A stretch of 44,419 nt of DNA, taken from contig NZ_JACCSU010000049.1 of NCBI RefSeq assembly GCF_013812825.1, forward strand, positions 1 through 44,419, written 5' to 3'. Of the stretch, positions 20,191-38,974 are shown in pieces; the first letter of the stretch is position 1, and each line of letters begins with the position of its first letter. The notes under the pieces are model-generated. The model saw nothing but the letters and a program-made list of their open reading frames with translations. It was not told the origin of the DNA and did no database searches. Origin of the DNA: Sphingomonas sp. Lineage in GTDB: Bacteria; Pseudomonadota; Alphaproteobacteria; Sphingomonadales; Sphingomonadaceae. Position numbers and translations under genes: made by a program.

Positions 20191-20213
20191 CAGGTTAGTT
20201 ATGTCCTGATGGG

Positions 20214-20590: not shown

Positions 20591-20595
20591 GGCTT

Positions 20596-20623
20596 ATGTC
20601 CGCTTTCCACCCAAATCGGACAT
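20596..20623 (+). repeat. Dispersed palindromic repeat, copy 8
   Basis: ATGTCCGCTTTCCACCC followed by AAATCGGACAT; belongs to the AAA-loop variant of the family. Confidence 0.75.
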
Positions 20624-23903: not shown

Positions 23904-24232
23904 GACGGGCCTCCAGTGTGCTGGAGGCCTACGGCTTGGCCCGCCCTAAGGTCCGCTTTGGGTGGAAAGCGGACATTAGCCAGGATGAGAGCGGCAAGGG
24001 ATCTTGTGTGAAGCGGCGGAGTCCGGAACCAGAGCTTCACATTTCAGAAATTGACATGACTTCTCATTTGCCTCAGATTTGAGTCTCGGCCCCAATGGGG
24101 TTCAGGGCGAAACTCGCCTTGCGGCAATGCCGCCATGCCGCGGTCAATGACTGCCCCTCCACCCACGCAATGCGTAGGCGCGAGATTTCCTCACATCGCG
24201 ACTTTTGGTCGCCAGCCTCCCGGAGATCGCAC
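23904..24232. other. Intergenic region before the methyltransferase gene
   Basis: 329 bp with palindrome copy 12 and the leader of the methyltransferase gene; no separate gene recognised. A single sequence similar to one arm of the 30 bp att-like sites (TGACATGAC, 24052–24060) is present but has no partner arm. Confidence 0.4.
23950..23980 (-). repeat. Dispersed palindromic repeat, copy 12 (inverted)
   Basis: On the minus strand reads AATGTCCGCTTTCCACCC followed by AAAGCGGACCTTA. The only inverted copy in the window. Confidence 0.8.
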
Positions 24233-25582
24233 ATGTTTGCGCCGTCGAAGATCCAGAAACTCGCCATTGCGGAGCTTGAGCCTCGCCCACAAAACGCGAG
24301 GACCCACAGTCCGAAACAAATCCGCAAGATCGCGGAGTCATTACGCCACTTTGGGTTCGTCAATCCGGTACTGATTGACGAGCGCCGATGCATCATCGCT
24401 GGGCATGGCAGAGTCGAAGCTGCAAAGGTGCTAGGACTTTCGACGGTTCCAACGATCACTCTCACTCATCTCAGCAAGGCAGAAGTTCGGGCCTACGTGC
24501 TCGCCGATAATCAGTTGGCCACGCTGGCCGGGTGGGACCGGGAGCTGCTCGCGATTGAAATTGCGACCTTGGCTGAAACCGTACCGGAACTCGACCTGAC
24601 GATTACGGGCTTCGATGCGGAGGAGATCGAGCTCCTCTGCGATCTCAAAGAGGGCGATGACAATGAGGAGGTGATTCTCCCTCGGGCCATCGCTTCAGAA
24701 CATCAGCCTAGTGTAACCAGGCCCGGGGATTTGTGGCGCATCGGCCGGCACCGACTGCTATGCGGAAATGCACTCGATCCAAATTCATATCGGGAGCTGC
24801 TTGGGGCCGAGCGGGCGGATATGGTGATCACTGATCCACCGTATAACGTACCGATCGTCGGTCACGTCTCCGGACTCGGCGTCGTTCAGCACCGCGAATT
24901 CTCCATGGCGTCTGGAGAAATGACCCGCACCGAATTCCGGCGCTTCCTGTCAGACGCCTGCTCGCTGCTGGCGCGATTCAGCCGTTCGGGCTCGCTCCAC
25001 TTTATCTTCATGGACTGGCGCTCGATCGCCGATCTCGTTGCGGCCGGCGAGCAGAATTACGACGAGCTTCTCAACATCATCGTCTGGATGAAGAACAATG
25101 CCGGGATGGGAAGCCTCTATCGGTCGCGCCATGAACTTGTTGCCTTGTTCAAGAAGGGGCGGCGATCTCACGTAAACAATGTCGAGCTTGGAAAGCACGG
25201 CCGCTACCGCACGAACGTCTGGGAATATCCGGGCGCGAACAGCTTCGGGACGGATCGAAGCACGGACCTTGCGCTTCACCCAACGGTGAAAAACGTCCGA
25301 ATGATCGCTGATGCGATCAAGGACGTGACCGACCCTGGGGCTATCGTGCTCGATCCCTTTGCCGGTTCGGGAACAACATTGGCTGCGGCGGAGCGTAGCC
25401 GTCGAACCTCAAGACTGATGGAATTGGATCCGCTTTATTGCGACATCATCGTCCGTCGGGGTTGCTCGATCGGTCTTCATGCCGAGCTCGAGGGCGAGGG
25501 CACGCCGTTCGAGGAGGTAGGGCGAGCACGCACTGGCGATTTTGCCGGCTTGTGCAAGCTGGAACAGGAGCCCGCGTCGTGA
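24233..25582 (+). CDS. ParB-like domain fused to DNA methyltransferase (N6-adenine/N4-cytosine, beta class)
   Basis: 449 residues. ATG 24233 follows GGAG at 7–8 nt; an upstream ATG at 24095 has no such site. Residues about 8–110 form a ParB N-terminal (sulfiredoxin-like) domain: ELEPRPQNARTHSPKQIRKIA, GFVNPVLIDERRCIIAGHGRVEAAK. The methyltransferase follows, with catalytic ITDPPYN near 200 and the AdoMet-binding DPFAGSGTTLAAAERSRR near 373; this order marks the beta class, as in CcrM. Such ParB–MTase fusions are common on alphaproteobacterial prophages and islands. The stop overlaps the next gene (GTGA). Target sequence cannot be read. Confidence 0.9.
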   Translation: MFAPSKIQKLAIAELEPRPQNARTHSPKQIRKIAESLRHFGFVNPVLIDERRCIIAGHGRVEAAKVLGLSTVPTITLTHLSKAEVRAYVLADNQLATLAGWDRELLAIEIATLAETVPELDLTITGFDAEEIELLCDLKEGDDNEEVILPRAIASEHQPSVTRPGDLWRIGRHRLLCGNALDPNSYRELLGAERADMVITDPPYNVPIVGHVSGLGVVQHREFSMASGEMTRTEFRRFLSDACSLLARFSRSGSLHFIFMDWRSIADLVAAGEQNYDELLNIIVWMKNNAGMGSLYRSRHELVALFKKGRRSHVNNVELGKHGRYRTNVWEYPGANSFGTDRSTDLALHPTVKNVRMIADAIKDVTDPGAIVLDPFAGSGTTLAAAERSRRTSRLMELDPLYCDIIVRRGCSIGLHAELEGEGTPFEEVGRARTGDFAGLCKLEQEPAS

Positions 25583-26019
25583 GCGGCGATAATGACGTAG
25601 GCTATCGCAAGCCACCAATGAATCATCAGTTCCGGCCCGGCAAGTCCGGCAATCCTAAGGGGCGACCGAAGCGTGAGCGCATCGACGTCGCTGAGCGGTT
25701 GTCCGAGCGGATTCGCTTTTCAATCAACGGCAAGGAGGAATCGAAGACGCCTTTCGAGGCAGGCCTTTTGAGCAGCGTCGGCCGAGCACTCAAGGGGGAC
25801 ATGCGCGCTGCCAGACGGTTTCTCGGGTACTGCAATTCTGCAGGACTGTTTGAGCGAGCGGAGCCAATCGACGATCATCAATACGTTTTGCGGATCCCTA
25901 AAGACTGGGACGATAAAGAATGGATGGCGATGTACGAACAGTTCGGCGCGCCACCGTGGAAGGGTGAACGAGACGGCTTGCCGAAGACTCCGCCGTGGGC
26001 ACCCATTGGTGGTTGGTGA
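25579..26019 (+). CDS. DUF5681-domain protein, first copy
   Basis: 146 residues from GTG 25579, which overlaps the methyltransferase stop. The family hallmark is near the N-terminus: GYRKPPMNHQFRPGKSGNPKGRPK (key blocks FRPGKSGNPKGRPK), a basic, glycine-rich motif likely to bind nucleic acid, then a helical region with ERLSERIRFSINGKEESKTPFEAGL. DUF5681 genes usually lie beside phage or island methyltransferase and terminase genes. Function unknown. Confidence 0.75.
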   Translation: MSGDNDVGYRKPPMNHQFRPGKSGNPKGRPKRERIDVAERLSERIRFSINGKEESKTPFEAGLLSSVGRALKGDMRAARRFLGYCNSAGLFERAEPIDDHQYVLRIPKDWDDKEWMAMYEQFGAPPWKGERDGLPKTPPWAPIGGW

Positions 26020-26497
26020 ATTGGAATCAGATGGCAGCGAGCCCACGGCTCGGCATGCCGACGGATCGGCATACGAGGTGGGCTACGGACGGCCACCCTT
26101 GCATAGTCGGTTTCGACCAGGTTACTCCGGAAATCCGGCTGGTCGACGGAAAGGGAGCGAAGACCATTCGAAGATTATTCGCAGAGTAGCCCTCCGGCGT
26201 GTCCTCATCGATGGAAGGCTCACTCAGAAGCGAAATATCGACCTCCTACTGGAGGTGGTGCGTCGTGCCGCTGCCAAGGGAGACTTCGTCGCCTTGTCCC
26301 TGGTCAGGAAGTACACCGGCTTTGTCGAAACTGAGGAGTCCCCCATTCCGAAGGGCATTCTAATCGTCGGCGAGAAGCTCACTCAAGAAGAGTGGAAGGC
26401 TGAGTATGGGCACCTTGGCCGGCCACCGGCTTCTGCGGCCCCTGAAGCCACGAAGCGTTACGAAGATGAGCGCCCTTGCGGCGAACCGACCGCATGA
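26009..26497 (+). CDS. DUF5681-domain protein, second copy
   Basis: About 162 residues from GTG 26009, overlapping the end of the first DUF5681 gene by 11 bp. It repeats the same architecture: VGYGRPPLHSRFRPGYSGNPAGRRKG, then a helical segment (IIRRVALRRVLIDGRLTQKRNIDLL) and a C-terminal EWKAEYGHLGRPP that parallels EWMAMYEQFGAPP in the first copy. The pair probably arose by duplication or represents a heteromeric set. The start is the least certain part. The end overlaps the convergent nuclease-like gene by 40 bp. Confidence 0.65.
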   Translation: MVGELESDGSEPTARHADGSAYEVGYGRPPLHSRFRPGYSGNPAGRRKGSEDHSKIIRRVALRRVLIDGRLTQKRNIDLLLEVVRRAAAKGDFVALSLVRKYTGFVETEESPIPKGILIVGEKLTQEEWKAEYGHLGRPPASAAPEATKRYEDERPCGEPTA

Positions 26498-27045
26498 AGC
26501 TGAGCTGCAACATGTTCTATCGCTTTTGCTAGTTCGTCGATCGGACACGCACTGGCGAGATTGGCAAGGCTTCGAAGGCCAATTCTCTTCCCACCGGGGA
26601 GCATCTCTGTCGGAACGACAAAGAAGCGCCATTGGCTCGGATCACAATGGTCTGCCGTCTCATCGATCACTGGATGGTGAGCAAAGACATAGAGATGGGC
26701 ACTGCGACCAGGCTCGGCGAACCAATCCGCGCCCTCGTACCGCCCGACGCGGCTCCTGATATCAAATGAGCAAGCACTGGGCTTGCCATTGCTCCGGGCC
26801 CAAGTCTGTTTGGACGCAGATTGCTTAACCTCCAGTCGAACCCCATCGCTGCGCTCGAAGTCCCAAGCCGCATAATCAGCCGAGCACCATCTCCATTCCG
26901 GAGGCAGTACTGACCTGACGATTGCCTCAGCAATCAGCCCGCGAAAGTTGTTGGTGATCAGGGCGCCGCCGAATGCTGCCTTGCATGCCATTTGCCGAAT
27001 GTGCGCCGGAGATGGAGGTACAACGGGGTCTGGCGAGGAATACAC
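26458..27045 (-). CDS. PD-(D/E)XK-like nuclease family protein
   Basis: 195 residues from GTG 27045 (ATG 26991 is an alternative); neither has a good ribosome-binding site. The core pattern GLIAEAIV (helix with Glu), WCSADYAAWDFERSDG (Asp) and VRLEVKQSA (E-x-K) matches the PD-(D/E)XK nuclease fold of restriction endonucleases and related enzymes. Further conserved-looking blocks are FDIRSRVGRYE, AHLYVFAHHPV and DPSQWRFFVV. It is divergent from a small XRE regulator with a 47 bp spacer and close to a DNA methyltransferase, which would fit a restriction role; this is inference. Confidence 0.6.
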   Translation of the reverse strand: MYSSPDPVVPPSPAHIRQMACKAAFGGALITNNFRGLIAEAIVRSVLPPEWRWCSADYAAWDFERSDGVRLEVKQSASKQTWARSNGKPSACSFDIRSRVGRYEGADWFAEPGRSAHLYVFAHHPVIDETADHCDPSQWRFFVVPTEMLPGGKRIGLRSLANLASACPIDELAKAIEHVAAQLHAVGSPQGRSSS

Positions 27046-27092
27046 ACTATAGTTGATAAACTGCGGTCTCTTAGATCGCCAATGCTTTGTGC

Positions 27093-27299
27093 ATGGATAT
27101 GCGCAAGCTCGTTGGCCGGAATGCTGCGAGAATTCGACGCGAGAAGGGCATGACACAGGAGCAGCTGGCTGAGCGCTCTGGCCTTAGCCAGCAGTATCTC
27201 AGCGGTCTCGAAAGTGGCCGACGCAATCCCACGATTGTGACGCTCTACGAGATTGCGACCGCGTTAGGCGTGTCCCACGTGGATCTCCTGAGGCCTTAG
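27093..27299 (+). CDS. XRE-family regulator (controller-protein-like)
   Basis: 68 residues from ATG 27093 (ATG 27099 is possible). A complete Cro/C1-type helix-turn-helix fills the protein: NAARIRREKGMTQEQLAERSGLSQQYLSGLESGRRNPTIVTLYEIATAL (blocks MTQEQLAERSGL, YLSGLESGRRNPT). Size and lack of other domains resemble C proteins of restriction-modification systems. It is divergent from the PD-(D/E)XK-like gene, with the operator expected in 27046–27092. Confidence 0.85.
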   Translation: MDMRKLVGRNAARIRREKGMTQEQLAERSGLSQQYLSGLESGRRNPTIVTLYEIATALGVSHVDLLRP

Positions 27300-27404
27300 A
27301 TCCGATTTCCACTGGACTTGGGCTGCATTTGAAGCATTGCTCATCTGTAAATCGCGGCCGGCCAATGCACCGGCTGCTGCCCTGGCCGGCTGACCGGCGG
27401 GGCT

Positions 27405-27453
27405 GTGGGTGGTGGGAAGGCGAGGGCGCCTTCCCCATGAAAGGACCACCCAC
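27405..27453 (+). promoter_or_regulatory. Large leader hairpin with the ribosome-binding site in a bulge
   Basis: Outer arms GTGGGTGGT (27405–27413) and ACCACCCAC (27445–27453) and inner arms GGGAAGGCG (27414–27422) and CGCCTTCCC (27427–27435) form 18 perfect base pairs, contiguous on the 5' side. The only unpaired right-side segment is CATGAAAGG (27436–27444), which contains the Shine-Dalgarno-like AAAGG. The DUF3489 start ATG is the next base (27454). The design suggests control of translation, or a binding site for an operon product. Confidence 0.75.
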
Positions 27454-27705
27454 ATGACGAAGACCAAAAAGACGGAATCCTCACTCAAAGCGACCGCCGC
27501 GAAGGCCAGCAACAAGGACAAGCTGCTGGAGCTGCTCCGCCGAGCTGGCGGGGCCAGCCTTGTAGAAATCACTGAAGTCACCGGTTGGCTGCCGCACAGC
27601 GCTCGCGCGATGCTGACCGGCCTTCGCAAGAAGAGCTTTGTCATTGGCAAGGAAAAGGTCGAGGGCACCACCCGCTACTCGATCGCGAATGAGCCCGCCG
27701 CGTGA
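27454..27705 (+). CDS. DUF3489 protein
   Basis: 83 residues from ATG 27454. A lysine/serine-rich start (MTKTKKTESSLKATAAK) leads to a winged-helix-like domain: KLLELLRRAGGASLVEITEVTGWLPHSARAMLTGLRKK and GTTRYSI. This is the DUF3489 family, regularly found just before DUF2924 and a serine recombinase in alphaproteobacteria. A DNA-binding role, perhaps with the recombinase as directionality or control factor, is likely but unproven. Its stop overlaps the next start (GTGA). Confidence 0.85.
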   Translation: MTKTKKTESSLKATAAKASNKDKLLELLRRAGGASLVEITEVTGWLPHSARAMLTGLRKKSFVIGKEKVEGTTRYSIANEPAA

Positions 27706-28121
27706 AGAAAGCGGATCGGGTTACGGAGGAGATTCGGGCGCTGGCAGCGCTCGGCCTCGCCGGTCTGCGGGATGTCTGGCGCCGGCACGGCTACGGCGAG
27801 CCGCCGAAGATGCGTTCGAAGGAGCTGCTGGCCCGCCTGCTTGCGTGGAAGATCCAGGCCGATGCATTCGGCGGGCTGGATGCGGCGACGATCCGGTTGT
27901 TGACGAGCGACCGGTTGCCGCGGCCGCGGGTGTTACTCGCGCCGGGCGCTCGGCTGGTTCGGCAGTGGCAGGGACGGCGCCACGAGGTTGACGTCTTGGA
28001 GGGCGGCTTTCAGCATAACGGAACGACCTACGGCAGCTTGTCTGAAGTCGCCCGCGCCATAACCGGCACCCGCTGGAATGGGCCGCGCTTCTTCGGCTTG
28101 CGCGAGGCCGGCGGCAAATGA
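27702..28121 (+). CDS. DUF2924 protein
   Basis: 139 residues from GTG 27702, coupled to DUF3489 by a GTGA overlap. Family blocks: EEIRALAALGLAGLRDVWRRHGYGEPPK (blocks LAGLRDVWRR and GEPPK), LLARLLAWKIQADAFGGLD, LAPGARLVRQWQGRRHEVDVLEGGF and the C-terminal GTTYGSLSEVARAITGTRWNGPRFFGL, which resembles a DNA-binding motif seen in phage-type proteins. It is followed with a 4 bp overlap by the recombinase. Function unknown, presumably in recombination. Confidence 0.88.
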   Translation: MKKADRVTEEIRALAALGLAGLRDVWRRHGYGEPPKMRSKELLARLLAWKIQADAFGGLDAATIRLLTSDRLPRPRVLLAPGARLVRQWQGRRHEVDVLEGGFQHNGTTYGSLSEVARAITGTRWNGPRFFGLREAGGK

Positions 28122-29767
28122 GCGGGGGCGGCGAGCGCATTCGCTGCGCGATCTACACCCGCAAGTCGACCGAAGAAGGGCTCGATCAGGTCTTCAATAC
28201 GCTCGATGCGCAGCGCGAGGCCTGTGAAGCCTACATCAAGTCACAGGCAGGAGAGGGGTGGCGGGCCCTACCGGAGCACTACGACGACGGTGGCTTCTCG
28301 GGTGGCAACATGGACCGGCCCGCCGTGCGGCGGCTGCTCGCCGATATCGACGCCGGAAAGGTCGACGTGATCGTCGTCTACAAGGTCGATCGACTGACAC
28401 GCTCACTGATGGACTTTGCCCGAATCGTTGAGCGGCTGGAGGCTCGCGGCGTGTCGTTCGTGAGCGTCACCCAAGCATTCAACACCACCACCAGCATGGG
28501 GCGCCTGACGCTCAATGTGCTGCTCTCATTTGCCCAGTTCGAGCGGGAGGTCACCGGCGAGCGGATCCGCGACAAGATTGCAGCGTCCAAAGCCAAAGGC
28601 ATCTGGATGGGCGGCAATATTCCGCTCGGATACGACCTTCAGGATCGCAAGCTCGTCATCAACCCGCGTGAAGCCGAGCAGGTGCGGCACATCTTCACGC
28701 GCTATCTGGCACTCAGATCAGGCGTTGACCTGATGCGGGAGCTTGCGGCTGACGGCATTGTCTCCAAGCGCTGCACGTCGCGGTCCGGAAAGGAGCGGGG
28801 TGGGCGGCCGTTTGGATGCGGGGCGCTGTATTATCTGCTCCAGAACCGCATTTATTGCGGAGAAATCGTCCACCGTGGGGTTAGTCATGGAGGCGAACAT
28901 GACCCAATTGTTGGCAATGATCTGTTCGAAGCCGTTCAAAAGCGGCTTGCAAGCAATCGGCGGGAGCGCGGAAAGCGCCCGGCTCGAGCAATGGCCTGCC
29001 CCTTGGCGGGCGTCGTGTTCGACGCCGGTGGTCGGCTGCTGACCACAAGCTTCAGCTATGGCCGTGGTGGAAAGGCCTATCGCTACTATGTATCGCCACC
29101 GCACTCCCCGATGAAAGGCGCGAGCGGAAATGGGCGGGAGCTGCGAGTGCCGGCTGACGGCCTCGAGACGCTGGTGACCCAGTTTGTCAGGCAGGTTCTG
29201 GGGAAAGACTCATCGTGGGAAGAGTTGCGCATGCTGGTGCAACGCGTTGAAGTGAGGGATCGGAGCATCCAGCTCGTAATTTCGCCGGGTCCCCTGCTTG
29301 AGCCGCATGAGCCGCTGACGTCCGCGGTAGATCGCCTTCGAAGACATAGAGGCGAGGGCCGGGTTGAACTCGGCACAGACGGGATGCTGCGCCTTATCCT
29401 GGACCGCGGCCCGAAGTTCCGGGGTGGTTCTACCGACTCCCAGTGCCCAGAATCGCGCATCGTTGGGCCGGACGCGAAGCTCGTGTCTCGGCTGAAAGTC
29501 GGGCACCAGCTTCTCGAACGCTTCCGAATGTCGCCAATGAATCCGAATTGCCATGGCTTCGCGGAAGCTCCACGGGACCAGCGCGATCGCCGACTGATGC
29601 ACCTCGGCCTGATCGCTCCCAGATTGCAAAAGCAGATGCTCGAGGGCCGATACCTAGAAGCTGGCCACCAATTTTTTAGTGGCGAATTTCCGCTCGCGTG
29701 GGCGGATCAGTTGCGACTGGCGCAAGTTCAAAACCCGTCTCATGACAATTGTGCGAAAATGTCATGA
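28118..29767 (+). CDS. Large serine recombinase
   Basis: 549 residues. The resolvase-type catalytic domain holds the nucleophile S17 (YTRKSTEEG), VDVIVVYKVDRLTRS and FAQFEREVTGERIRDKI. The recombinase domain follows (GNIPLGYDLQDRKLVINPREAEQVRHIF, LLQNRIYCGEIVHRG). The usual zinc-ribbon cysteines are absent: ACPLAGVVFDAGGRLL stands where LxGxxxCxxCG is expected, as in other alphaproteobacterial members. It should catalyse integration, excision or inversion. Last gene of the DUF3489–DUF2924 operon; its stop codon lies inside the first 30 bp att-like site. Confidence 0.93.
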   Translation: MSGGGERIRCAIYTRKSTEEGLDQVFNTLDAQREACEAYIKSQAGEGWRALPEHYDDGGFSGGNMDRPAVRRLLADIDAGKVDVIVVYKVDRLTRSLMDFARIVERLEARGVSFVSVTQAFNTTTSMGRLTLNVLLSFAQFEREVTGERIRDKIAASKAKGIWMGGNIPLGYDLQDRKLVINPREAEQVRHIFTRYLALRSGVDLMRELAADGIVSKRCTSRSGKERGGRPFGCGALYYLLQNRIYCGEIVHRGVSHGGEHDPIVGNDLFEAVQKRLASNRRERGKRPARAMACPLAGVVFDAGGRLLTTSFSYGRGGKAYRYYVSPPHSPMKGASGNGRELRVPADGLETLVTQFVRQVLGKDSSWEELRMLVQRVEVRDRSIQLVISPGPLLEPHEPLTSAVDRLRRHRGEGRVELGTDGMLRLILDRGPKFRGGSTDSQCPESRIVGPDAKLVSRLKVGHQLLERFRMSPMNPNCHGFAEAPRDQRDRRLMHLGLIAPRLQKQMLEGRYLEAGHQFFSGEFPLAWADQLRLAQVQNPSHDNCAKMS

Positions 29768-29768
29768 G
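29739..29768. repeat. 30 bp inverted-repeat site 1 (att-like), at recombinase stop
   Basis: CTCATGACA-ATTGTGCGAAAA-TGTCATGAG: perfect 9 bp arms and a 12 nt spacer, centre GC. It overlaps the last codons of the serine recombinase, a common place for an attachment site. Confidence 0.8.
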
Positions 29769-29781
29769 TGGAAGAGATTGG

Positions 29782-29812
29782 ATGTCCACTTTCGACCCAT
29801 TGCGGACATTGC
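29782..29812 (+). repeat. Dispersed palindromic repeat, copy 13
   Basis: ATGTCCACTTTCGACCC followed by ATTGCGGACATTGCGC; last recognisable full copy, 13 bp beyond att-like site 1. Confidence 0.8.
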
Positions 29813-29853
29813 GCTGTGATCGGGTTGGCGCCTAGCTGCAGTCCCCATGACCA

Positions 29854-30822
29854 TCACCGTTTGGATAGTATCTCTCGGAGAGGCTCGTGCACCTCTCGCA
29901 TCTTCGGCAGCTCGCCCCTGCCGCCGACAAAATCGACGATCGGCGCGGGCGGAGCGCGGTCCCGGATGCCGCGACCGCCATTGCGCGCCTCGAAGTCCGC
30001 CTTCAGTTTGAAAACGTCGTGCTTGAGGTCGTTAGGCCTACAGCAGCTGCCGTAGCGCGCGAAGGGAATGCCGCAGGTGCAAAGCTCATCGGGCTTGACC
30101 TCGGCGAGCCGATAATAGGGGTGCGGCAATGCGTAATGCTTGCCCGGCCAGCGACCGATCACTTCATTGTGCAAGTGCCGCATCGCCCAAACCGAATAGA
30201 GGTCGATCAGCGTTGCGAGGCTTCCGCCCTCAGACCATGCGTCATCCTCCGTGGGCGAGAACGCACAGATCGAACCGTCGAAAAAATTCGTATGTCGGTC
30301 ACCCATCCACCTAAAGCCCGCGGGTGTATTCCAGAACGCCCAAGCTCGCGGACCAACTCCTTTGCGGAAAGGTAAGGCTACGAGGAATGTGGCGTCCGCG
30401 TTTAGGCCCTCAATAAGGGCGCTATGCACGAGGAGCCACACTCCGTCGTCGTCGGGGAACTCACGTAGCGTCGGGTAGGCTTCTTCAAGCTCACCTAGCT
30501 GTTCTTCGTAAGCGGCCCGCAAGCTGCGGACCCGTGGCCGGGCACGGGACGCCCGTGATCGATCGGCCTGCCCTTGTCGTCCGGCGGACCCTTGCCGTGG
30601 TCGGGCTGCGGGTCTTCGCGGTCCTTGTCGTTGCTCATGGTAAGTCTCCTGGACCGCTGGTTCTGGGTCGTCGCCGTCGAAGCAAACAATGCCGCGATTG
30701 CGCACCCGAACAGCCCGGTAGCGGTCCATTGCCTCGCCGAACTGTTGCAGCACGGCTTGCCCTTCGGGAGAGAGGAGGGCTTCCAATTCCCCCGGAAGTG
30801 TGCGACTCTGTGCCAACGACAC
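29854..30822 (-). CDS. E2/UBC-like protein with C-terminal SEC-C motif (5' part uncertain)
   Basis: 322-codon open frame. The C-terminal two thirds look like an E2 ubiquitin-conjugating fold: GVWLLVHSAL, then RHTNFFDGSICAFSPTEDDAW, which matches the E2 hallmark H.N...G.IC...W (candidate Cys about residue 186), and LIDLYSVWAMRHL, GRWPG. A SEC-C zinc motif follows (CTCGIPFARYGSCC). Residues about 63–100 are an arginine-rich run that looks out of frame; in another frame the same DNA gives a well-initiated peptide (30495–30638). So the gene may start near TTG 30522, or be frameshifted. No E1, ubiquitin-like or JAB gene is adjacent. Divergent from the XRE–ImmA gene. Confidence 0.6.
   Translation of the reverse strand: MSLAQSRTLPGELEALLSPEGQAVLQQFGEAMDRYRAVRVRNRGIVCFDGDDPEPAVQETYHEQRQGPRRPAARPRQGSAGRQGQADRSRASRARPRVRSLRAAYEEQLGELEEAYPTLREFPDDDGVWLLVHSALIEGLNADATFLVALPFRKGVGPRAWAFWNTPAGFRWMGDRHTNFFDGSICAFSPTEDDAWSEGGSLATLIDLYSVWAMRHLHNEVIGRWPGKHYALPHPYYRLAEVKPDELCTCGIPFARYGSCCRPNDLKHDVFKLKADFEARNGGRGIRDRAPPAPIVDFVGGRGELPKMREVHEPLREILSKR
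30495..30638 (-). CDS. Possible small Asp/Gly/His-rich protein or displaced 5' end of the E2-like gene
   Basis: 47 codons starting MSNDKDREDPQPDHGKGPPD, with a strong AGGAGA 7 nt before ATG 30638. It lies out of frame within the E2-like open frame and stops (TAG 30495) just inside the E2 start region. A −1 shift near its end would join it to RAAYEEQLGELEEAYPTL of the E2-like domain. Either a real short upstream gene coupled to the E2 gene, or its true N-terminus separated by a frameshift. Confidence 0.45.
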   Translation of the reverse strand: MSNDKDREDPQPDHGKGPPDDKGRPIDHGRPVPGHGSAACGPLTKNS

Positions 30823-30877
30823 GGAAAATGGGGCAAAGGGGGGTCTGTGTCAATGCGTGTGAATCGCACAGGATCGT

Positions 30878-31831
30878 ATGAAATCGTTTGAAACGCGGCT
30901 CGTTGAAGCCGTTCGCCGGAAGCGCGAGGGCAAGGGCTTGAGCCTCCGCGCTCTTTCAGCTGTTGTGGGTATTAGCTTCTCGACCCTCGCTCGGATCGAG
31001 CGAAGGGACGGCGTGCCTGATAACAACTCAAAAATTCGATTGCTGGAATGGCTCGGCTCGGACGCGGAAAAAGCGGGTCTGAGCTTTGAGAATGTGGCCC
31101 TCGTTCATTTCCGCGCCGGGAAGAATGCGCGATCATCAACGGTCCAGGCACTTCTAACCGCTGCTGAGTGCATCAAAAAAAGCCGTCCTCTAGAAGCGTC
31201 GGACGCAAGGGCGGGCGCCGATGATGAGGACGATGAGGACGATGATCACAAGCCATTATCGCTTTCCAAGGAAGAGCTTGAGCGAACCGCCGAGCAATTC
31301 CGCAAGGATCTAAAGCTTGCCTACAGCCACGCCTTAGACTCGCTGAAGCTGGACGTCGAAGGCATTGAAATCATCAGATTGAGAGAGACCAACTGCTTGG
31401 ACGCCGCGACCGTAAGGCGCCTCAGTACCGAAGCTTGCGATGAATGGTCTGCAATGAGTGTTCCCTTGAATGAGATCCAAGATCAATGGGCCGTTCTATT
31501 GAATGATTGTCACACGCCCGAGCGGCAAAGGGTCACTCTGCTCGAAGAGGTTTGGCACATTCTCTTAGGCCACAAGCTCGTGAAGATAGCCAAGGTGGCG
31601 GAGTCATTTGGGCGAACCTACGACACAGTTGAGGAGCATGACGCTTACTACTTAGCGTCCGCCACGCTTCTACCACGCAAGGCGGTCGCCGAGGCGGTTG
31701 AGAAGCGTGAATCGTCTGACGATATCGCTAGTCGATTTGGTACATCGCCAGAACTGGTCGAATACCGAATCAAGCGACTTGGCCTTTGGCGTGACTACAT
31801 CGGAAAGCGCGTAGCGCTCACATCCATGTAG
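30878..31831 (+). CDS. XRE regulator with C-terminal ImmA/IrrE-like domain
   Basis: 317 residues. N-terminal helix-turn-helix (about 5–60; LSLRALSAVVGISFSTLARIERRDG), a very acidic linker (DDEDDEDDDH near 112–122), then an ImmA/IrrE-like protease domain. The expected HExxH zinc motif reads LLEEVWHILLGH (about 221–232), so the first histidine is replaced by Glu; the downstream EEHDAYYLASATLLP still matches the third-ligand helix. The protease may be inactive or use different ligands. A short HTH-like end (DDIASRFGTSPELVEYRIKRLG) closes the protein. It is followed 51 bp later by DUF3800, a common partner. Confidence 0.8.
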   Translation: MKSFETRLVEAVRRKREGKGLSLRALSAVVGISFSTLARIERRDGVPDNNSKIRLLEWLGSDAEKAGLSFENVALVHFRAGKNARSSTVQALLTAAECIKKSRPLEASDARAGADDEDDEDDDHKPLSLSKEELERTAEQFRKDLKLAYSHALDSLKLDVEGIEIIRLRETNCLDAATVRRLSTEACDEWSAMSVPLNEIQDQWAVLLNDCHTPERQRVTLLEEVWHILLGHKLVKIAKVAESFGRTYDTVEEHDAYYLASATLLPRKAVAEAVEKRESSDDIASRFGTSPELVEYRIKRLGLWRDYIGKRVALTSM

Positions 31832-31882
31832 CATTGGCAATTAGGCCGAGCCTCAGCACTTCCCAAACGACAGGCTCTCGGC

Positions 31883-32716
31883 ATGAAGTTCGCATACGTA
31901 GACGAGAGCGGCGACCCAGGCCAATCTGACGTTTTCGTAATGGTGGGTCTCTTAGTTGATGCCTATCGGCTCCGCCGCATTACTTCTGACTTTGACCAAC
32001 TGCTGCGTAACTTCTTGGCGCAGCATCCAGGCCACCCCAACGAGCTGAAGACCAAGAACCTCATCAATGGGCAGGGTGGCTGGAACAACGTCCAGGCGGA
32101 GGCCCGCAAGGGTTTCCTGCGTTCCGTGTGCGAACTGGCGGCGCGCGATGGAAGGCTGTTCGTGAGTGCGATTTCATTCGATCGGTTCAACGCCAATCTG
32201 CCTGAGGGTCCTCATCCTACACGGCGATCTTACTGGCACGCTGGCGGCATGTATGTGGCGGGCCTAGTCCAGAAAAAGCACCAGGACGAAAAGGCGAACA
32301 AGGGCCTCACAGTGCTCGTCATGGACGATAACAAGATGGGGATGGCGAACCTATCGGACTCGATCTACGCGCCCGACCCTTGGTTCGATTGCCTGTATCA
32401 ACGACGAAAGTTGAAGAAGGGAAAGGTGACTTGGGTAGTGCGAAACGCAGCGAACCGTCTCGATCACATCGTGAACACCGCGTTCGCGATCAAGTCGACC
32501 CATTCGTCGCTGGTGCAGGTGTCCGATGCCTTGTCGTATGTCTTCCGCAGGCATCTTGAACTGAAGACAGAAGACGAAGCTTACGCTGGCGAGGCGGCGT
32601 ATTATCTCGGGCTTGCGAATGTGCTGAACCCAAGGCGAGAAAAGCTCGGGCAGGGTCCCGAAGGCGACGCCCGTGACTTCTACCGCGCAATTGCACCCGA
32701 TGACTGGGATCTTTGA
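31883..32716 (+). CDS. DUF3800 protein (RNase H-like fold)
   Basis: 277 residues. The N-terminal FAYVDESGDPGQ is the DUF3800 hallmark; ELKTKNL (about residue 53), VLVMDDNK (about 148) and LVQVSDALSYVFRRHLE near the end complete the acidic set expected of an RNase H-like nuclease. The family is widespread on islands and suspected to act in phage defence or as a toxin-like effector, but no activity is established. It probably forms an operon with the XRE–ImmA-like regulator, which may control it. Confidence 0.85.
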   Translation: MKFAYVDESGDPGQSDVFVMVGLLVDAYRLRRITSDFDQLLRNFLAQHPGHPNELKTKNLINGQGGWNNVQAEARKGFLRSVCELAARDGRLFVSAISFDRFNANLPEGPHPTRRSYWHAGGMYVAGLVQKKHQDEKANKGLTVLVMDDNKMGMANLSDSIYAPDPWFDCLYQRRKLKKGKVTWVVRNAANRLDHIVNTAFAIKSTHSSLVQVSDALSYVFRRHLELKTEDEAYAGEAAYYLGLANVLNPRREKLGQGPEGDARDFYRAIAPDDWDL

Positions 32717-32782
32717 GACTCAAGGGTCGGACGTTAGTCGCGTGGGTCACTCACTTCCCCGCCGTCCGGCAGTAGCTGGCGC

Positions 32783-32929
32783 TCATGAGGTCAAGCCCGG
32801 TCCGCATCCACTGATCGCGGCGAACGGATCACCCTTGTAGTTCTGCGCGATGTCGTGCGCGGCATAGAGGGAAGCCGCGGCAGCTTTGCACGTTCCCATC
32901 TCGAATTCCGCCAGTCGGTTGAAGGCCAC
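32783..32929 (-). CDS. Possible short protein or gene remnant (48 aa)
   Basis: Frame from GTG 32929: VAFNRLAEFEMGTCKAAA..., ending GCGPGLTS. Composition is protein-like and more GC-rich than its surroundings, suggesting the truncated end of a larger foreign gene. No ribosome-binding site seen. Confidence 0.25.
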   Translation of the reverse strand: MAFNRLAEFEMGTCKAAAASLYAAHDIAQNYKGDPFAAISGCGPGLTS

Positions 32930-32943
32930 AATCGGCTATTCAA

Positions 32944-32973
32944 CTCATAACAATTCCGTGTTTTTGTCACCAG
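32944..32973. repeat. 30 bp inverted-repeat site 3 (att-like, diverged)
   Basis: CTCATAACA-ATTCCGTGTTTT-TGTCACCAG: three arm mismatches from the consensus, same 9-12-9 spacing, centre GT. Confidence 0.6.
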
Positions 32974-33007
32974 GACGCTCTACCTGACTCGTGCTAACCT
33001 GGTCGGT

Positions 33008-33154
33008 ATGAGTAACGATCAAGAGATTGGCGCGATGTTTGCCACCGCTTGGCAAGCTCGAGCGAGACTGAGCGGCAGCTCCGTTTTCGGAGATGACCAA
33101 ACCCTACTTCCCACCCAGAACCACGGGCGCATCCTTCATTCCTTCAACAAGTGA
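33008..33154 (+). CDS. Possible small protein (48 aa)
   Basis: ATG 33008, MSNDQEIGAMFATAWQARAR...; not recognised. Its TGA overlaps the GTG start of the next short frame (GTGA), the same coupling style used elsewhere in this island. It sits between att-like sites 3 and 2. Confidence 0.35.
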   Translation: MSNDQEIGAMFATAWQARARLSGSSVFGDDQTLLPTQNHGRILHSFNK

Positions 33155-33330
33155 ACACGCTCCGTCCCGGCGTGATCGTGTCGATGGACCGAATGGCTGA
33201 AGCCGCGTGTGACGCATGGGCACTGCAGGAAGCGGCGGTCGTGAAACACTGGTACTACACCCGGAAGCGCGACGCACACGCAGAGCGCACCATTACGCTG
33301 AAGGCGATGTCCGCCAACCGTAACTCATGA
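33151..33330 (+). CDS. Possible small protein (59 aa) ending inside att-like site 2
   Basis: GTG 33151, VNTLRPGVIVSMDRMAEAAC..., basic and aromatic centre (VVKHWYYTRKRDAHAER). Its TGA lies in the left arm of site 2, as the recombinase stop lies in site 1. Could be a small insert gene or the rest of a truncated one. Confidence 0.35.
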   Translation: MNTLRPGVIVSMDRMAEAACDAWALQEAAVVKHWYYTRKRDAHAERTITLKAMSANRNS

Positions 33331-33353
33331 CATTTCTGTACATTTGTCATGAG
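33324..33353. repeat. 30 bp inverted-repeat site 2 (att-like, perfect arms)
   Basis: CTCATGACA-TTTCTGTACATT-TGTCATGAG; arms identical to site 1, spacer different, centre GT. Confidence 0.8.
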
Positions 33354-33643
33354 TGCTGAAGAATCCGCACCTGCGTTGACATCCATGGGGCCGCAAGTTC
33401 AATCTTCGCCGCGCGCACCATTTTTTCGCTTCAAGAACGTTTGGAAACTCAAGTGAATGCTACGCCTAACGCCACGACTCGTCGCCCAGGGAGGCGCCTC
33501 ATTGGCCACGGCAAGTCAGCGAACAGCGCGGCGGAGTAATGCAAGACGGCCACAGTGACTGATTGCCGATGCGGTAATTCTCGTTAAAATCGCACGACCT
33601 CGCGATGCTCGGCGGGAGGGAACCGACTGACGGAGAGGTTCCA

Positions 33644-36286
33644 ATGAGTTCGCCTGCTTCTCAAATCTTGGCCTGGTCTAAGTCACAGCAGCCGTGGCGC
33701 CAGTGCGCACTTCGGCGCTTGATCACCTGTTCTTTCACTAAGTCGGACGAGGACGAGCTTCTCACTCTACTGAAGGCCGATCACGGCCTGGTTGAAACGA
33801 GCATAAAGCCAGTGCCACTCACGGAGGAGCATATTCCAGACGCGACGGTTACTGATGCGTTGGTAGCTCTCGTAGAAATTACGGGCGTCCAGCGAGTTAA
33901 CCAGCTCTCGACGCAGAGCGAACTTGAGTTCGGGACAAGCGGCCTCACCGTGATCTATGGTGATAATGGAAGTGGCAAATCCGGCTTCGTCCGGATCTTG
34001 AAATCAGCTTGCCGGTCCAAGGGAGCTGACGCCGTTCTCCCAAATGTTTTTGCGCAGGCGCTGACGACAGAACCGTCAAGAGCCAAGATTAGCTATCGAA
34101 TGGCGAATGAGGAGAAACCGCGACAGGCACAGTGGGAGTCGGGACAAGCAACCGACGAGGAACTATCGCAAGTGAGCGTTTTCGATAGCAAGTGCGCGTC
34201 TATCTACGTTGACAATTTCAATGAATTGAAAGCCGTCCCATACTCTCTCGATTGTTTTGAGCGGCTTGCGGCGCTGTGTGACGCACTCAAGTCGCGACTT
34301 GAGCTTGAGCGAAGCGCACTGGCCGCGGCAACTGCACTACCGGTAGTGAACTTGGATGAAGGCACAGCCGCCAAATCATTCCTGGACGCGTTGGCAACGA
34401 AGTCCAAGGACCAAGTTGAGGCCTTCGCGACGCACACCGAGGCGGACGAGGAAAGGCTTACGGAACTTGAAAAGATCGTGGGCGATCCACAAGCAAGATT
34501 GGCGGAACTGAAGCTCGTTCTGCAGTCCGCCTACGAGCTCGACAAACTACTCAATCGCCTACAGCGGCACCTATCGCCGGAGGGGCTTCAAGCCCTGCAC
34601 AAGGCCGCTGCCAACGCCAGCGCTGGTCATAAGGCCGCAGAGCTCGCGGCAAAGCAAGGAGCCGACGATGGATCGCTTTTGCCAGGCGTCGGATCCGCAC
34701 TCTGGGGAATCCTCTACGAGGCAGCTCAGCGATATTCGGAACAAGAAGCGTATCCTGGAAAGCCATTTCCTGTGACAGATGGGGCAGCGCAGTGCGTTCT
34801 TTGTCAGCAGGCGCTCGACGACGCTGCGAAGAACCGCTTCGTCACTTTCAAATCGCTCGTGGACGACGAAGCAAGCAAAGCGGCGGATGCGGCCGATAAG
34901 GCGTTCAGCGCCAAGCTTCAAGAGCTGAAGGAGGCCACGGAAGAACTCTCAAAAATCGAGGTGCATGTTCAAGCGATCACCAAGGAGAACGCGGCGGTTG
35001 GCGGAACGCTGTCGCAGTTCGTTACCGACGCAAAAGTCTGCGCGGTCGCCATTCAGTCGCATTTTGCGGGAGCAGATCTGCCTGAGGATTTCTCTTTTCC
35101 ACCGTTCCCTACGGCCCGACTGGATACCTTCCAGACGGCCGGGAAGCTCATAAAGGCAGAGGTCGAAAGCGCGATCCAAGCTGACGATACGGCCACCACA
35201 AAATCGGAACTCTCATCCCTAAAAGCAAAGAAGCTCCTTGCAGAGAATAAGGCGCAGGTCCTGGCGCGGCTGGGCCAGCTCGGCTCCCTGAAAAAACTCG
35301 ATAAAGCGATAGGCGCCTGCGGAACACACGGGATTTCACAACAGGGGCGTCAGCTGCTTCAACAATACGTCACGAAAGCGCTCAACGACGTGCTTACTGA
35401 GGAGCGCAAGGCGCTTCGGATGCAGCACATACCGCTGTCGCTTCTATCTGAGGGCAAAAAGGGCGCGGAGAGACATAAGCTCAAGTTAAAGAGTGAGAGC
35501 TTCACGGGCCAGATGTCGCAAGTTTTGAGCGAGGGTGAGCATCGCGCCATGGCATTGGCTCTTTTCCTCGCGGAGCTGCGCGTGCTTGGCACGACCACAC
35601 CCGTAGTGGTTGATGATCCTGTGTCGTCTCTGGACCATATCCGCGCAGAGCGCGTGGCCGCACGGCTTGTTGAGGAGGCCAAGAGCCGACAGGCAATCGT
35701 CTTTACCCACGACCTTTTCTTTTACACGACAGTGCAAACTCAGTGCGCCCATCAGCAGGTTCCGCTGCGCCGATTGGCTATCATAAAAACTCCGATCTCG
35801 ACCGGTGTCATTGACCCGTCGGGCGACCCTTGGGCGGCGAAATCGGTCCCCCAACGAGTGGACTGGCTGAACAACAAGCTTTCACATGCTAAGAAGGCGT
35901 TTGAAGCTGGCAACCAAGAGGAGTTCGCCGGCCAGTCCCGCGATTTTTATTTTGGCCTCCGACCCACATGGGAGCGCCTCGTCGAGGAGTTGCTTCTCAA
36001 GAGCGTTGTGGTTCGGTTCAGGCTAAGCGTTGAGACTACGCGGCTTGCGGAGGTCGTAGTTGATGATGACCTCTTTCTAATGGTGAGCAACGGCATGTCG
36101 GAGACGTCAGCGCTAGCGGCGCACGACCAGGCGGCAATTCCTAACGCGCCTTGGCCTGAGCCTGATGAGATGGAGGCCCATTTGCGGACCCTTACGGGGT
36201 GCATCGCGGCTGTCGACGCCAAATCCAAGGCTACAAAGAAGGTGCGCGAAGCGCTGCTGAAGCCTCCTAAGGTAACTACGCATTGA
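33644..36286 (+). CDS. SMC/RloC-like AAA ATPase with CxxC hook; candidate defence protein
   Basis: 880 residues. ATG 33644 has GGAGAGG 5 nt upstream; ATG 33605 is less good. Walker A YGDNGSGKSGF (about 106–115) near the N-terminus and, after long coiled-coil-rich arms, the signature LSEGEHRAMALALFLAEL (about 627) and Walker B VVVDDPVSSLD (about 655). The arms meet near CVLCQQ (about 384), a zinc-hook-like CxxC. The C-terminal domain has RPTWERLVEELL and SALAAHDQ, a possible Arg–Glu–His set like the anticodon nucleases PrrC/RloC. Related ATPases are known in phage defence; the RNase role here is inference. It stands alone between att-like sites 2 and 4. Confidence 0.8.
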   Translation: MSSPASQILAWSKSQQPWRQCALRRLITCSFTKSDEDELLTLLKADHGLVETSIKPVPLTEEHIPDATVTDALVALVEITGVQRVNQLSTQSELEFGTSGLTVIYGDNGSGKSGFVRILKSACRSKGADAVLPNVFAQALTTEPSRAKISYRMANEEKPRQAQWESGQATDEELSQVSVFDSKCASIYVDNFNELKAVPYSLDCFERLAALCDALKSRLELERSALAAATALPVVNLDEGTAAKSFLDALATKSKDQVEAFATHTEADEERLTELEKIVGDPQARLAELKLVLQSAYELDKLLNRLQRHLSPEGLQALHKAAANASAGHKAAELAAKQGADDGSLLPGVGSALWGILYEAAQRYSEQEAYPGKPFPVTDGAAQCVLCQQALDDAAKNRFVTFKSLVDDEASKAADAADKAFSAKLQELKEATEELSKIEVHVQAITKENAAVGGTLSQFVTDAKVCAVAIQSHFAGADLPEDFSFPPFPTARLDTFQTAGKLIKAEVESAIQADDTATTKSELSSLKAKKLLAENKAQVLARLGQLGSLKKLDKAIGACGTHGISQQGRQLLQQYVTKALNDVLTEERKALRMQHIPLSLLSEGKKGAERHKLKLKSESFTGQMSQVLSEGEHRAMALALFLAELRVLGTTTPVVVDDPVSSLDHIRAERVAARLVEEAKSRQAIVFTHDLFFYTTVQTQCAHQQVPLRRLAIIKTPISTGVIDPSGDPWAAKSVPQRVDWLNNKLSHAKKAFEAGNQEEFAGQSRDFYFGLRPTWERLVEELLLKSVVVRFRLSVETTRLAEVVVDDDLFLMVSNGMSETSALAAHDQAAIPNAPWPEPDEMEAHLRTLTGCIAAVDAKSKATKKVREALLKPPKVTTH

Positions 36287-36357
36287 ACTCCACGCTCGCC
36301 GCAACTTGGACCCGAACTAGGCCCCGCGCGGACCGGAATGAGCCAACCACGCCACCA

Positions 36358-36387
36358 CTCCTGACTTTTCCGTGCTTTTGTCTTGAA
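36358..36387. repeat. 30 bp inverted-repeat site 4 (att-like, diverged)
   Basis: CTCCTGACT-TTTCCGTGCTTT-TGTCTTGAA: seven of nine matches in each arm and the same spacing; spacer closely resembles that of site 3. Lies 72 bp after the ATPase stop. Confidence 0.55.
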
Positions 36388-36568
36388 TCAACTTTCGCTC
36401 GTCGTCGGAAACCGTGCACCGAAATTTCCCTTCAGAGATTGAGGCGTCGATTCGGCCGAGTTCGTCTGGTTCGGACAGTCTCTGGACACTGATGCGAGGC
36501 CGAGGACCCGCAGAACTACGCTATTCTCAGGGCCAATCAGTGGAGAGACTCGAGGGTCTGAATGTGGG

Positions 36569-36642
36569 TGGAGGCCCGAGCCGGAATCGAACCGGCGTGC
36601 AAGGATTTGCAGTCCTCTGCGTAACCACTCCGCCATCGGGCC
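36569..36642 (-). tRNA. tRNA-Cys (GCA anticodon)
   Basis: Cloverleaf is readable on the minus strand: acceptor GGCCCGA pairs with TCGGGCC, D-loop GAGTGGTTA, anticodon loop CTGCAAA (GCA), T-arm GCCGG-TTCGATT-CCGGC, discriminator U and encoded CCA at 36569–36571. No long variable arm, as expected for Cys. Its 3' end faces the accessory region. Confidence 0.95.
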
Positions 36643-36839
36643 GAGGCGAGCCATGTCGGTGGGATCGCGGCCGCCGTCAAGCATCAACCGGCGCGCCAAT
36701 TCAACCCGTTGCCCGCACCGGGCGCGCCCGGCGAATTGACCGAAGCCGCTCATCGTTCGACCAACGGCGGTTGGCGCGACTGCAACCTGTCAGTAAGAGC
36801 AGCCTTGCATCGAAGGTGTGTTAGCGGCATATAACAGCT

Positions 36840-37496
36840 ATGACGGTCCAGCTCCCAATCCCCGACTTCGCGGCGGCTCGCCGGGCGATGATCGAGAACC
36901 AGCTGCGCCCGGTCGGAGTAACCGATCCCGCGGTGCTCCAGGCGATGGGCTCGGTCGCTCGCGAGCAGTTCGTGCCGGAGGACAATCGGCCGCTCGCCTA
37001 TGCCGACCGGTCGGTTCCGATCGGCGGCGGGCGATATTTGGCGGCGCCCGCGGTGCTCGGCCAGCTGCTGACCCAGATGGCGCCGAAGAAGGGCGAGCGA
37101 GCGCTCGTCGTCGGCGCCGGCACCGGCTACGCGGCGGCGGTGCTGGCCGCGGTCGGCTGCGACGTGACCGCGCTCGAAAGCTCGTCCGCACTGGCCGCCC
37201 GCGCTCGCGAGATCGGGATCAACACGGTCGAAGGACCGCTCGAGGAGGGCCATTCGGCCGGCGTGCCTTATGATCTGATCGTCATCGACGGCGCGGTCGA
37301 ATTCATTCCAGACGCGATCATCCAGCAGCTGGTCGACGGCGGCCGGCTCGGCGCCGCGCTTGCCGAGGGCGGGGTCACTCGGCTGATCGTTGGCCAGAAG
37401 GTCGCCGGCGCATTCGGCTATCTGTCGATCTCCGACGCCGCAGTCGCCGCACTGCCGGGATTCAGCCGGCCCCGGGGATTCAGGTTCGAAAGGTGA
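36840..37496 (+). CDS. pcm: Protein-L-isoaspartate O-methyltransferase family protein
   Basis: 218 residues. Class I AdoMet-dependent methyltransferase: RRAMIENQLRPVGVTDPAVL and VAREQFVPEDNRPLAYADRSVPIGGGRYL (blocks QFVPED and AYADRSVPIG) match the substrate end of the PCMT family, and ALVVGAGTGYAAAVLA (near 90–105) is the AdoMet-binding motif. Canonical members repair isoaspartyl residues; this alphaproteobacterial branch next to tolC lacks the usual G(Q)TISQP stretch (here GGGRYLAAP), so repair activity is less sure. Its stop overlaps the next start (GTGA). Confidence 0.85.
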   Translation: MTVQLPIPDFAAARRAMIENQLRPVGVTDPAVLQAMGSVAREQFVPEDNRPLAYADRSVPIGGGRYLAAPAVLGQLLTQMAPKKGERALVVGAGTGYAAAVLAAVGCDVTALESSSALAARAREIGINTVEGPLEEGHSAGVPYDLIVIDGAVEFIPDAIIQQLVDGGRLGAALAEGGVTRLIVGQKVAGAFGYLSISDAAVAALPGFSRPRGFRFER

Positions 37497-38974
37497 GCAA
37501 GGTGTTGCGTAAACTTGCACTAGGGACTCTGGCGGCGGCGCTGATGGCCGGAACGGCGTCGGCCGACACGCTGCGCGAGGCGCTGCTGTCGACCTACCGG
37601 ACCAACCCGACCATCACCGGCCAGCGCGAGGCGCTTCGGGCGACCGACGCCAACGTGGCGATCGCGCGGGCCGCCGGGCGGCCGCAGGTCAGCGCGACCG
37701 CGGGCATCAACCGCGACCTGACCCGAAGCGGGATTCTCGATACCGGCGGCAAGGGTCCCGACCTGTCGGTGGGGCTGGACCTCAGCTACCCTTTGTTCAA
37801 CGGCGGCAGCGTCCGTAACAGCGTCCGCGCCGCCCAGACACGGGTGGAAGCGGGTCGCGCGACTCTCCGGGCGGTCGAGGGCGACGTGTTCACCGAGGCG
37901 GTGGCCGCCTACATGGACGTGATCCGCGACCGGGCGATCGTCGAATTGAACGCCAACAACGTCCGGGTGCTCGGAACCAACCTCGAGGCGACTCGCGACC
38001 GGTTCGAGATCGGCGATCTGACCCGCACCGACGTCGCCCAGTCCGAGGCGCGGCTGCAGCTCGGCCGGGCGAACCTCGCCACCGCGCAGGGGCGGCTGAC
38101 GTCGAGCGAGGAGAATTACCGGCGGGTGATCGGCAAGCGCCCGGAAGCGCTGGCGCCGCCGCCGCCGCTGCCGCCGCTGCCGTCGACCCCGGACGAAGCG
38201 GTGCGCATCGCGCTTGCCAACAACCCCGACCTGATCGCGGTCACCCGCCAGGCTTCGGCCGCCGGGTTCGACGTCAGCGTCGCCCGAGCGGGCCGGCTGC
38301 CGACGGTGTCGAGCGTGGTCAGCGGCACCTACATCAATGCCCTGGGCGGCAATCCGGGCCCGCTTCCGAGCACTGGCACGCAGACCAGCGCCGGCCTCAA
38401 CGCGCGCATCCCGCTCTACCAGGGTGGGCTCCCGGCGGCCCGGATTCGAGCCGCCCAGGCGCTCGAGGGCCAGTTCCTCGAGCAGATGATCGCTACCGAG
38501 CGGGCGGTGGTCTCCAACACCCGGTCGGCGTTCGCCAGCTACCAGGCGGCGCAGAACGCGATCGCGTCGAACGTGGTGGCGGTCAACGCCAACGAGCTGG
38601 CGCTCGAAGGCGCCCGCGCCGAGCAGAGCGTCGGCACCCGGACCGTGCTCGACGTGCTCAACGCCGAGCAGGAGCTCTTGAATGCCCAGGTCGCGCTGGT
38701 GACCGCGCGGCGCGACGCCTATGTCGCCGGCTTCCAGCTCTTGAACGCGATGGGCCAGGCGGAGGCCGACGATCTGGGGCTCGAAGGCGGGCCGCTTTAC
38801 GACCCGCTCGGCAATTACCGCCGAGTCTCCAGCAACTGGAACGACTGGGCCAACGATCGCCGCCACGACCCCGTCGCGACCCGCACCGTGACCCCCAGTG
38901 AGGTACCGGTGCCTCTGGGGCGGGTGCTGACCGAGCCGGTCACCACGTCCGGGGTGACACAGCCGCCGCAATAA
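37493..38974 (+). CDS. tolC: TolC-family outer-membrane efflux/secretion protein
   Basis: 493 residues from GTG 37493, coupled to pcm. Signal peptide MSKVLRKLALGTLAAALMAGTASA. Two tandem OEP repeats follow: first about 25–225 (TNPTITGQREALRATDANVAIARAAGRPQVSA, DRFEIGDLTRTDVAQSEARL) and second about 235–440 (NPDLIAVTRQ, EQSVGTRTVLDVLNAEQELLNAQ). These build the trimeric channel-tunnel for type I secretion and RND/MFS efflux. A proline-poor, Thr/Val-rich tail of about 50 residues is typical of alphaproteobacterial members. Confidence 0.93.
   Translation: MSKVLRKLALGTLAAALMAGTASADTLREALLSTYRTNPTITGQREALRATDANVAIARAAGRPQVSATAGINRDLTRSGILDTGGKGPDLSVGLDLSYPLFNGGSVRNSVRAAQTRVEAGRATLRAVEGDVFTEAVAAYMDVIRDRAIVELNANNVRVLGTNLEATRDRFEIGDLTRTDVAQSEARLQLGRANLATAQGRLTSSEENYRRVIGKRPEALAPPPPLPPLPSTPDEAVRIALANNPDLIAVTRQASAAGFDVSVARAGRLPTVSSVVSGTYINALGGNPGPLPSTGTQTSAGLNARIPLYQGGLPAARIRAAQALEGQFLEQMIATERAVVSNTRSAFASYQAAQNAIASNVVAVNANELALEGARAEQSVGTRTVLDVLNAEQELLNAQVALVTARRDAYVAGFQLLNAMGQAEADDLGLEGGPLYDPLGNYRRVSSNWNDWANDRRHDPVATRTVTPSEVPVPLGRVLTEPVTTSGVTQPPQ

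Follow-up and report, generated by a model that had tools for sequence, protein, structure and literature searches.

Short dyad sites as possible borders of exchangeable cassettes, including several anti-phage ones, in an island of Sphingomonas sp. and in related replicons

The window, by which we mean the whole stretch of 44,419 nucleotides of Sphingomonas sp. analysed here, contains an operon for a DUF3489 protein, a DUF2924 protein and a serine recombinase, followed by an array of four short dyad sites that extends over 6,649 bp and ends near a tRNA-Cys gene (Table 1). Sites 1 and 2 enclose three genes, the ORF at 29854–30822 on the reverse strand and the XRE-ImmA and DUF3800 genes, and sites 3 and 4 enclose the gene for the PDC-S06 ATPase. 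The reverse-strand ORF had been labelled E2-like in an earlier note on this DNA; Pfam, PADLOC and NCBIfam gave no support for this label, which we retain as a name. Genes for a ParB-methyltransferase and a DUF5681 protein precede the recombinase operon (24095–26497).

Table 1. Features of the window discussed in the text (arm mismatches counted against CTCATGACA/TGTCATGAG; strand of sites according to their T-tracts).
Feature	Position	Strand	Remarks
Short tyrosine recombinase, 203 aa	23292..23903	-	PF00589; alternative candidate enzyme
DUF3489 protein	27409..27705	+	Recombinase operon; Pfam PF11994
DUF2924 protein	27702..28121	+	Recombinase operon; Pfam PF11149
Serine recombinase, 549 aa	28118..29767	+	Resolvase and Recombinase domains
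Site 1	29739..29768	-	Perfect arms (0 mismatches); core TCGCAC (reverse orientation); holds recombinase stop
ORF labelled E2-like earlier	29854..30822	-	No family match
XRE and ImmA/IrrE peptidase	30878..31831	+	Weak PADLOC RmrA matches, best E 5.4e-9
DUF3800 protein	31883..32716	+	
Site 2	32944..32973	+	3 arm mismatches; core CCGTGT
Segment between sites 2 and 3, 350 bp	32974..33323		No ORF of at least 80 aa
Site 3	33324..33353	+	Perfect arms (0 mismatches); core CTGTAC
AAA ATPase	33605..36286	+	PADLOC candidate defence protein PDC-S06, E 1.8e-183
Site 4	36358..36387	+	4 arm mismatches; core CCGTGC; 181 bp from tRNA-Cys
Stretch from site 4 to tRNA-Cys	36388..36568		By-eye comparison
tRNA-Cys	36569..36642	-	Beside DNA variable across the genus

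All four sites, described in the earlier note as 9-bp arms around a 12-bp spacer, were recovered with this geometry on re-inspection of the window sequence, and the reported overlap of site 1 with the recombinase gene was found to be exact, with the TGA stop codon at 29765–29767 lying within the right arm. The remark that sites 2–4 have the central dinucleotide GT in common was also correct; they share one orientation, and site 1 is oriented opposite to them. The motif is rare: in the assembly of 2,449,372 bases (100 contigs, 96% complete), a search with the 28-bp core allowing up to three mismatches found four places, all of them within the array, and the same search with the core read backwards found one. 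With the 30-bp pattern and the same limit, three matches were obtained against an expectation of 0 from 100 shuffles; site 4 is beyond three mismatches on this pattern, yet within three on the 28-bp core. Sharply bounded dyads of this kind, several of which lie between convergent genes, could also be operators of a regulator or transcription terminators that have nothing to do with mobility. However, the directions of the flanking genes are mixed, all four copies in the assembly reside in one island, and an Rfam search of positions 27000–37500 up to E 0.5 matched the tRNA alone, so we regard this explanation as improbable.

Sites from other genomes show that the dyad is real and belongs to a specific family, but its conserved extent is 32 bp instead of the 30 bp originally proposed, with a T-tract on either side of a variable core. 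The consensus of 27 collected sites is ACTCATGACA-N12-TGTCATGAGT, a dyad with sharp borders: conservation is high at positions -1 to 30, except in the core, and near background on either side. The outer AC/GT was absent from the search patterns behind 19 of the 27 sites, yet it is conserved. The middle mostly reads TTTN6TTT with recurring 6-bp cores, namely TCGCAC (window site 1, G047b and G062c), GTACAG (G047a and G062b, as well as window site 3 in reverse), CCGTGT (window site 2, G062a, G036 and G066:C43) and TGTCAC (G057, G029 twice, and one site on each of two Paracoccus plasmids).

Within the genus, 9 of 71 genomes matched a pattern with added T-flanks at up to three mismatches and controls gave 0; eight of these were accepted, G052 being left out with a profile score below 12. 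At the level of the order, four of 396 genomes (G000, G047, G062 and G114) matched with up to two mismatches, again with 0 in controls, and at the level of the class a related pattern matched 2 of 367 genomes, one of which was the window's own; G807 was set aside. In the family, searching for the arms only matched 82 of 397 genomes (controls in four, by reading); among the matches listed, most were without T-tracts and were set aside, and at least G114 and G210 were worth keeping. Sites were also found in two genomes of other genera and on the two Paracoccus plasmids, which carry one and three sites, respectively, and one viral contig (L304) matches the exact site pattern. Matches with weak scores (L149:5481, L166:9938 and L189:7622) were left out, and in phage records there was no match over 80% of the query.

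The sites are clustered in several genomes. A rough formula assuming uniform placement gives probabilities of 8e-8 for the window, 1e-7 for G062, 0.004 for G047, 0.003 for G066 and 0.002 for G114, and of 0.02 and 0.06 for G057 and G029, in which two sites each are 27 and 87 kb apart. Sites standing alone or far apart were further found in G210, G033, G036 and G066:C43. Leaving out the G057 and G029 pairs, seven of the nine pairs of neighbouring sites are direct repeats, the direction of G062b being the least certain. The central dinucleotide, which is shared in att pairs of serine integrases and in SCC-like chains, agrees in just three of the nine pairs; strict serine-integrase chains would not allow differing central dinucleotides. 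If the ends were hybrids, the outward arms should show decay, but inspection of the aligned sites did not clearly reveal any.

With variable dyad sites placed between putative cassettes, the array is reminiscent of integrons. The sites described here are shorter than attC, and the covarying arms characteristic of attC hairpins were not found. Recombination of the sites as single-strand hairpins in the manner of attC might be considered, given a conserved stem, a variable loop and compensatory changes of both arms in G062c and P. liaowanqingii 2. Across the family, though, arm covariation did not exceed that of shuffles (134 of 500 reach the score; P 0.18 in a second test), and this mode of recombination is already disfavoured and appears highly improbable.

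Different gene blocks are bracketed by the sites in different genomes, and in five genomes, including that of the window, neighbouring sites stand at both ends of a block. In G047, the recombinase operon is followed by a site, the HsdR-HsdS-HsdM genes of a type I restriction system and a second site. The order in G062 is site, two genes without family match, site, HsdR-HsdS-HsdM (again type I restriction) and two sites. G066:C78 has two ORFs between two sites, the second of which gave weak matches to small GTPases and Leo. According to mechanical ORF calls, the start of the first ORF of this block lies within one site and the stop of the last within the other, because TCATGA contains both a start and a stop. 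In G114, two sites enclose a single gene without match. No defence match was obtained for the G062 pair, the first G066 gene or the G114 gene. Beyond these blocks, the G036 site adjoins a match to a CBASS-type cyclase (PADLOC, E 4e-54), and the site on the P. marcusii plasmid adjoins methylase, helicase and DUF262 genes.

Some relatives of the window genes were also found without sites. On plasmids, the E2-like/XRE-ImmA stretch is conserved in Rhizobium etli and Sinorhizobium sojae; the R. etli stretch is site-free and adjoins the gene for a related ATPase, which runs the other way. Two plasmid-borne DUF3800 relatives overlap or adjoin HsdR genes, and the one whose region was fetched sits inside a type I restriction operon. 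For ten other PDC-S06 relatives, no site was found within 1.5 kb. The R. etli and plasmid relatives imply that the blocks of the window are composite and that these genes can come together without any site. The R. etli plasmid (L324, 3661–8789) holds the E2-like ORF region, XRE-ImmA and the PDC-S06-related ATPase together in a site-free arrangement, and maybe these genes constitute one functional defence unit.

As to the enzyme, the recombinase next to site 1 matches both PF00239 and PF07508 above cut-off and thus has the domains of a large serine recombinase. Its sequence matches in the PDB include the integrases of TP901-1, SPbeta and PhiC31, and no zinc-ribbon model matched in Pfam. The earlier proposal that such an enzyme acts on the sites is supported in part. 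Three loci have a site just after an operon with a serine recombinase gene: the window, G047, where the 32-bp unit begins 26 bp past the recombinase stop, and the viral contig L304, where the distance is 143 bp. Strong relatives of the recombinase, defined by an E-value below 1e-40 as a cut-off of our choice, are present in seven of the eight genus genomes with sites and in 23 of the 63 others (P=0.008). If the genome of the window is left out, six of seven genomes with sites have a relative (P 0.018), and P is 0.026 when G052 is counted. On the other hand, the arrays of G062 and G066:C78 have no recombinase relative within fetched stretches of 20 kb and 14 kb, respectively, and the site of G066:C43 lies at the end of a tyrosine integrase gene. 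No relative was found in the genus genome search for G057, which has sites, and of the three closest relatives of the recombinase two, those of G015 and A. segetis, are free of sites.

This last point bears on a narrower explanation, in which the sites would be att sites solely of the clade of the window recombinase and the array a stack of attL/attR sites left by repeated integrations of a prophage-like element that encodes a ParB-methyltransferase and a terminase-like protein. In the recombinase tree, the window, L304, G015 and A. segetis form a four-member clade with support 100. The L304 recombinase is 57% identical over residues 8–531, its DUF3489-DUF2924 order is that of the window, and the contig encodes a ParB-methyltransferase related to window 24095–25582 as well as, by reading of the translation, a terminase-like ORF. 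Since the methyltransferase and the operon match this viral contig, that part of the window is likely a prophage remnant. The recombinase adjoins the site in both the window and L304, and sites 2–4 are alike in the central GT and in orientation, which speaks for such a stack. Yet G015 and A. segetis have no site at the recombinase, the recombinases of G047 and G036 are far from the window clade although G047 does have the site after its operon and G036 upstream of it, central dinucleotides mostly disagree, and two arrays lack a recombinase relative in the stretches fetched. Restriction of the sites to this one clade therefore seems rather unlikely.

We also considered whether related recombinases are generally followed by an inverted repeat of some kind, but inspection of the gene ends did not reveal one after every related recombinase. 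In the sister clade, CCCTGTT...AACAGGG-like repeats are located past the stop in L017, L022, L038 and L039, and a tRNA-Ser lies about 370–440 bp downstream in five of six members; possibly, the area of these repeats and the tRNA-Ser is the sister clade's own attachment region.

A different class of enzyme could be involved instead. With 14-bp arms and a 6-bp overlap, the geometry of the sites fits the 14-6-14 layout of simple Cre/FLP-type sites such as loxP and FRT, and tyrosine recombinases are encoded within about 1.3 kb of the array in G114, 1.8 kb in G062 and 5.8 kb in the window; the G066:C43 site extends across the stop codon of an integrase ORF of 392 aa. Nearness is weak evidence, however, because the 10 genomes searched encode 4 to 13 such enzymes each, and the 6-bp cores at the two ends of a cassette differ, so that we judge action of a tyrosine recombinase on the sites to be unlikely. 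The 203-aa protein of the window matches the catalytic domain alone in Pfam, and similarly short proteins are encoded in G029, G047 and G062.

Several known systems resemble the array. SCC/ECC cassette chromosomes, with their CcrAB/CcrC serine recombinases, have dyad sites at cassette edges and variable cargo (PMC6222049). The window recombinase matches models for CcrB, CcrC and CcrA below their curated cut-offs and mainly with its N-terminal half. The sites here are about 32 bp long in contrast to about 50 bp there, their core is inconstant, some arrays are without a nearby recombinase, and several of the islands are linked to tRNA genes and not to rlmH. In Acinetobacter dif modules, adjacent sites are inversely oriented, a rule that our predominantly direct repeats do not follow, and the site arms are unlike those of Xer sites. 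Similar to our sites, the pdif sites recognized by XerC/XerD are short and separate small interchangeable modules (PMC13141974). Among phage modules, DUF2924 is named in the Wolbachia literature. Wolbachia phage WO pairs DUF2924 with a serine recombinase.

The array ends at a tRNA-Cys/pcm locus that is variable in the genus. Among the 71 pcm loci, 20 were compared as longer stretches from other species; their fillings differ, and no single-site, cargo-free allele was found at this locus. In six of the 20 genomes, tRNA-Cys has an orthologue of the SelO gene of the window (11570–12985) within 5.6 kb, so that foreign DNA in the window may extend over about 13.0–36.57 kb. By eye, the sequence between site 4 and the tRNA resembles the tRNA-proximal end in G007, G015, G032 and G066, and in G015 this end comes after another serine recombinase. 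More generally, 106 recombinase relatives were available with their stop plus at least 150 bases after it, and 38 of them have a tRNA gene up to 1.5 kb downstream (25 at a distance of 187–480 bp); as all 38 face the recombinase, the family appears to target the 3' ends of tRNA genes commonly. The position of the array between the recombinase and the island end is consistent with cassettes having been loaded there. A comparison of G033 with G068, read by eye among 12 genomes, showed about 230 bp of extra sequence in G033 between the end of tRNA-Lys and the next gene, with its solo site included.

Two other repeats were observed in these regions. In L303 (G015), two copies of the tRNA-proximal end, at about 999 and 3224, flank a serine recombinase gene in a unit of roughly 2.2 kb, with sequence resembling a tRNA 3' end, by eye, after the inner copy, which suggests a minimal tRNA-targeting serine-recombinase element. 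A ATGTCCGCTTTCGACCCATTGCGGACATT-like element is repeated in several copies at 17530–20600 of the window and also at 23947 and 29782, with 23–28 of 30 positions identical; it was seen at the end of the G037 recombinase and beside a G057 site as well, and has the appearance of a repeat dispersed in the genus.

On balance, we consider it somewhat probable that the sites are attachment-type recombination sites that bound exchangeable cassettes, several of them anti-phage, in mobile islands. One family of two-fold symmetric sites of about 32 bp, with conserved arms, T-tracts and a variable 6-bp core, would be recognized by a site-specific recombinase, and through its action blocks between direct repeats could be gained or lost. 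The likeliest candidate for this enzyme, with a chance a little short of even, is the DUF3489/DUF2924-linked serine recombinase, which might act in cis in the window and in trans on the arrays that have no recombinase of their own; otherwise, a tyrosine recombinase could act in trans. Successive insertion at one target, as suggested earlier, may plausibly have given rise to the array. A more far-reaching possibility, which we put forward tentatively and with some doubt, is a cassette system of Alphaproteobacteria in which the 32-bp site serves to load and exchange largely anti-phage modules and the DUF2924-linked recombinase, acting in cis or in trans, tolerates core differences. The site would then be shared among chromosomes, plasmids and a viral contig, and modules would be exchanged much as in integrons or dif modules. 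No description of these sites was seen among the results of literature searches.

Gain and loss of modules in defence islands are mostly credited to phages, integrative elements and homologous recombination. The site family offers a concrete site together with candidate enzymes, and a recombinase that accepts mismatched cores would be unusual, if this proves true. In this bacterium and in some of its relatives, the sites border small blocks made up largely of virus-defence genes, and these blocks look like interchangeable cassettes. A short site that marks the borders of modules across replicons and genera would provide a sequence handle for finding such modules, and this handle would also reach orphan genes like those in the G114 and G066 blocks.
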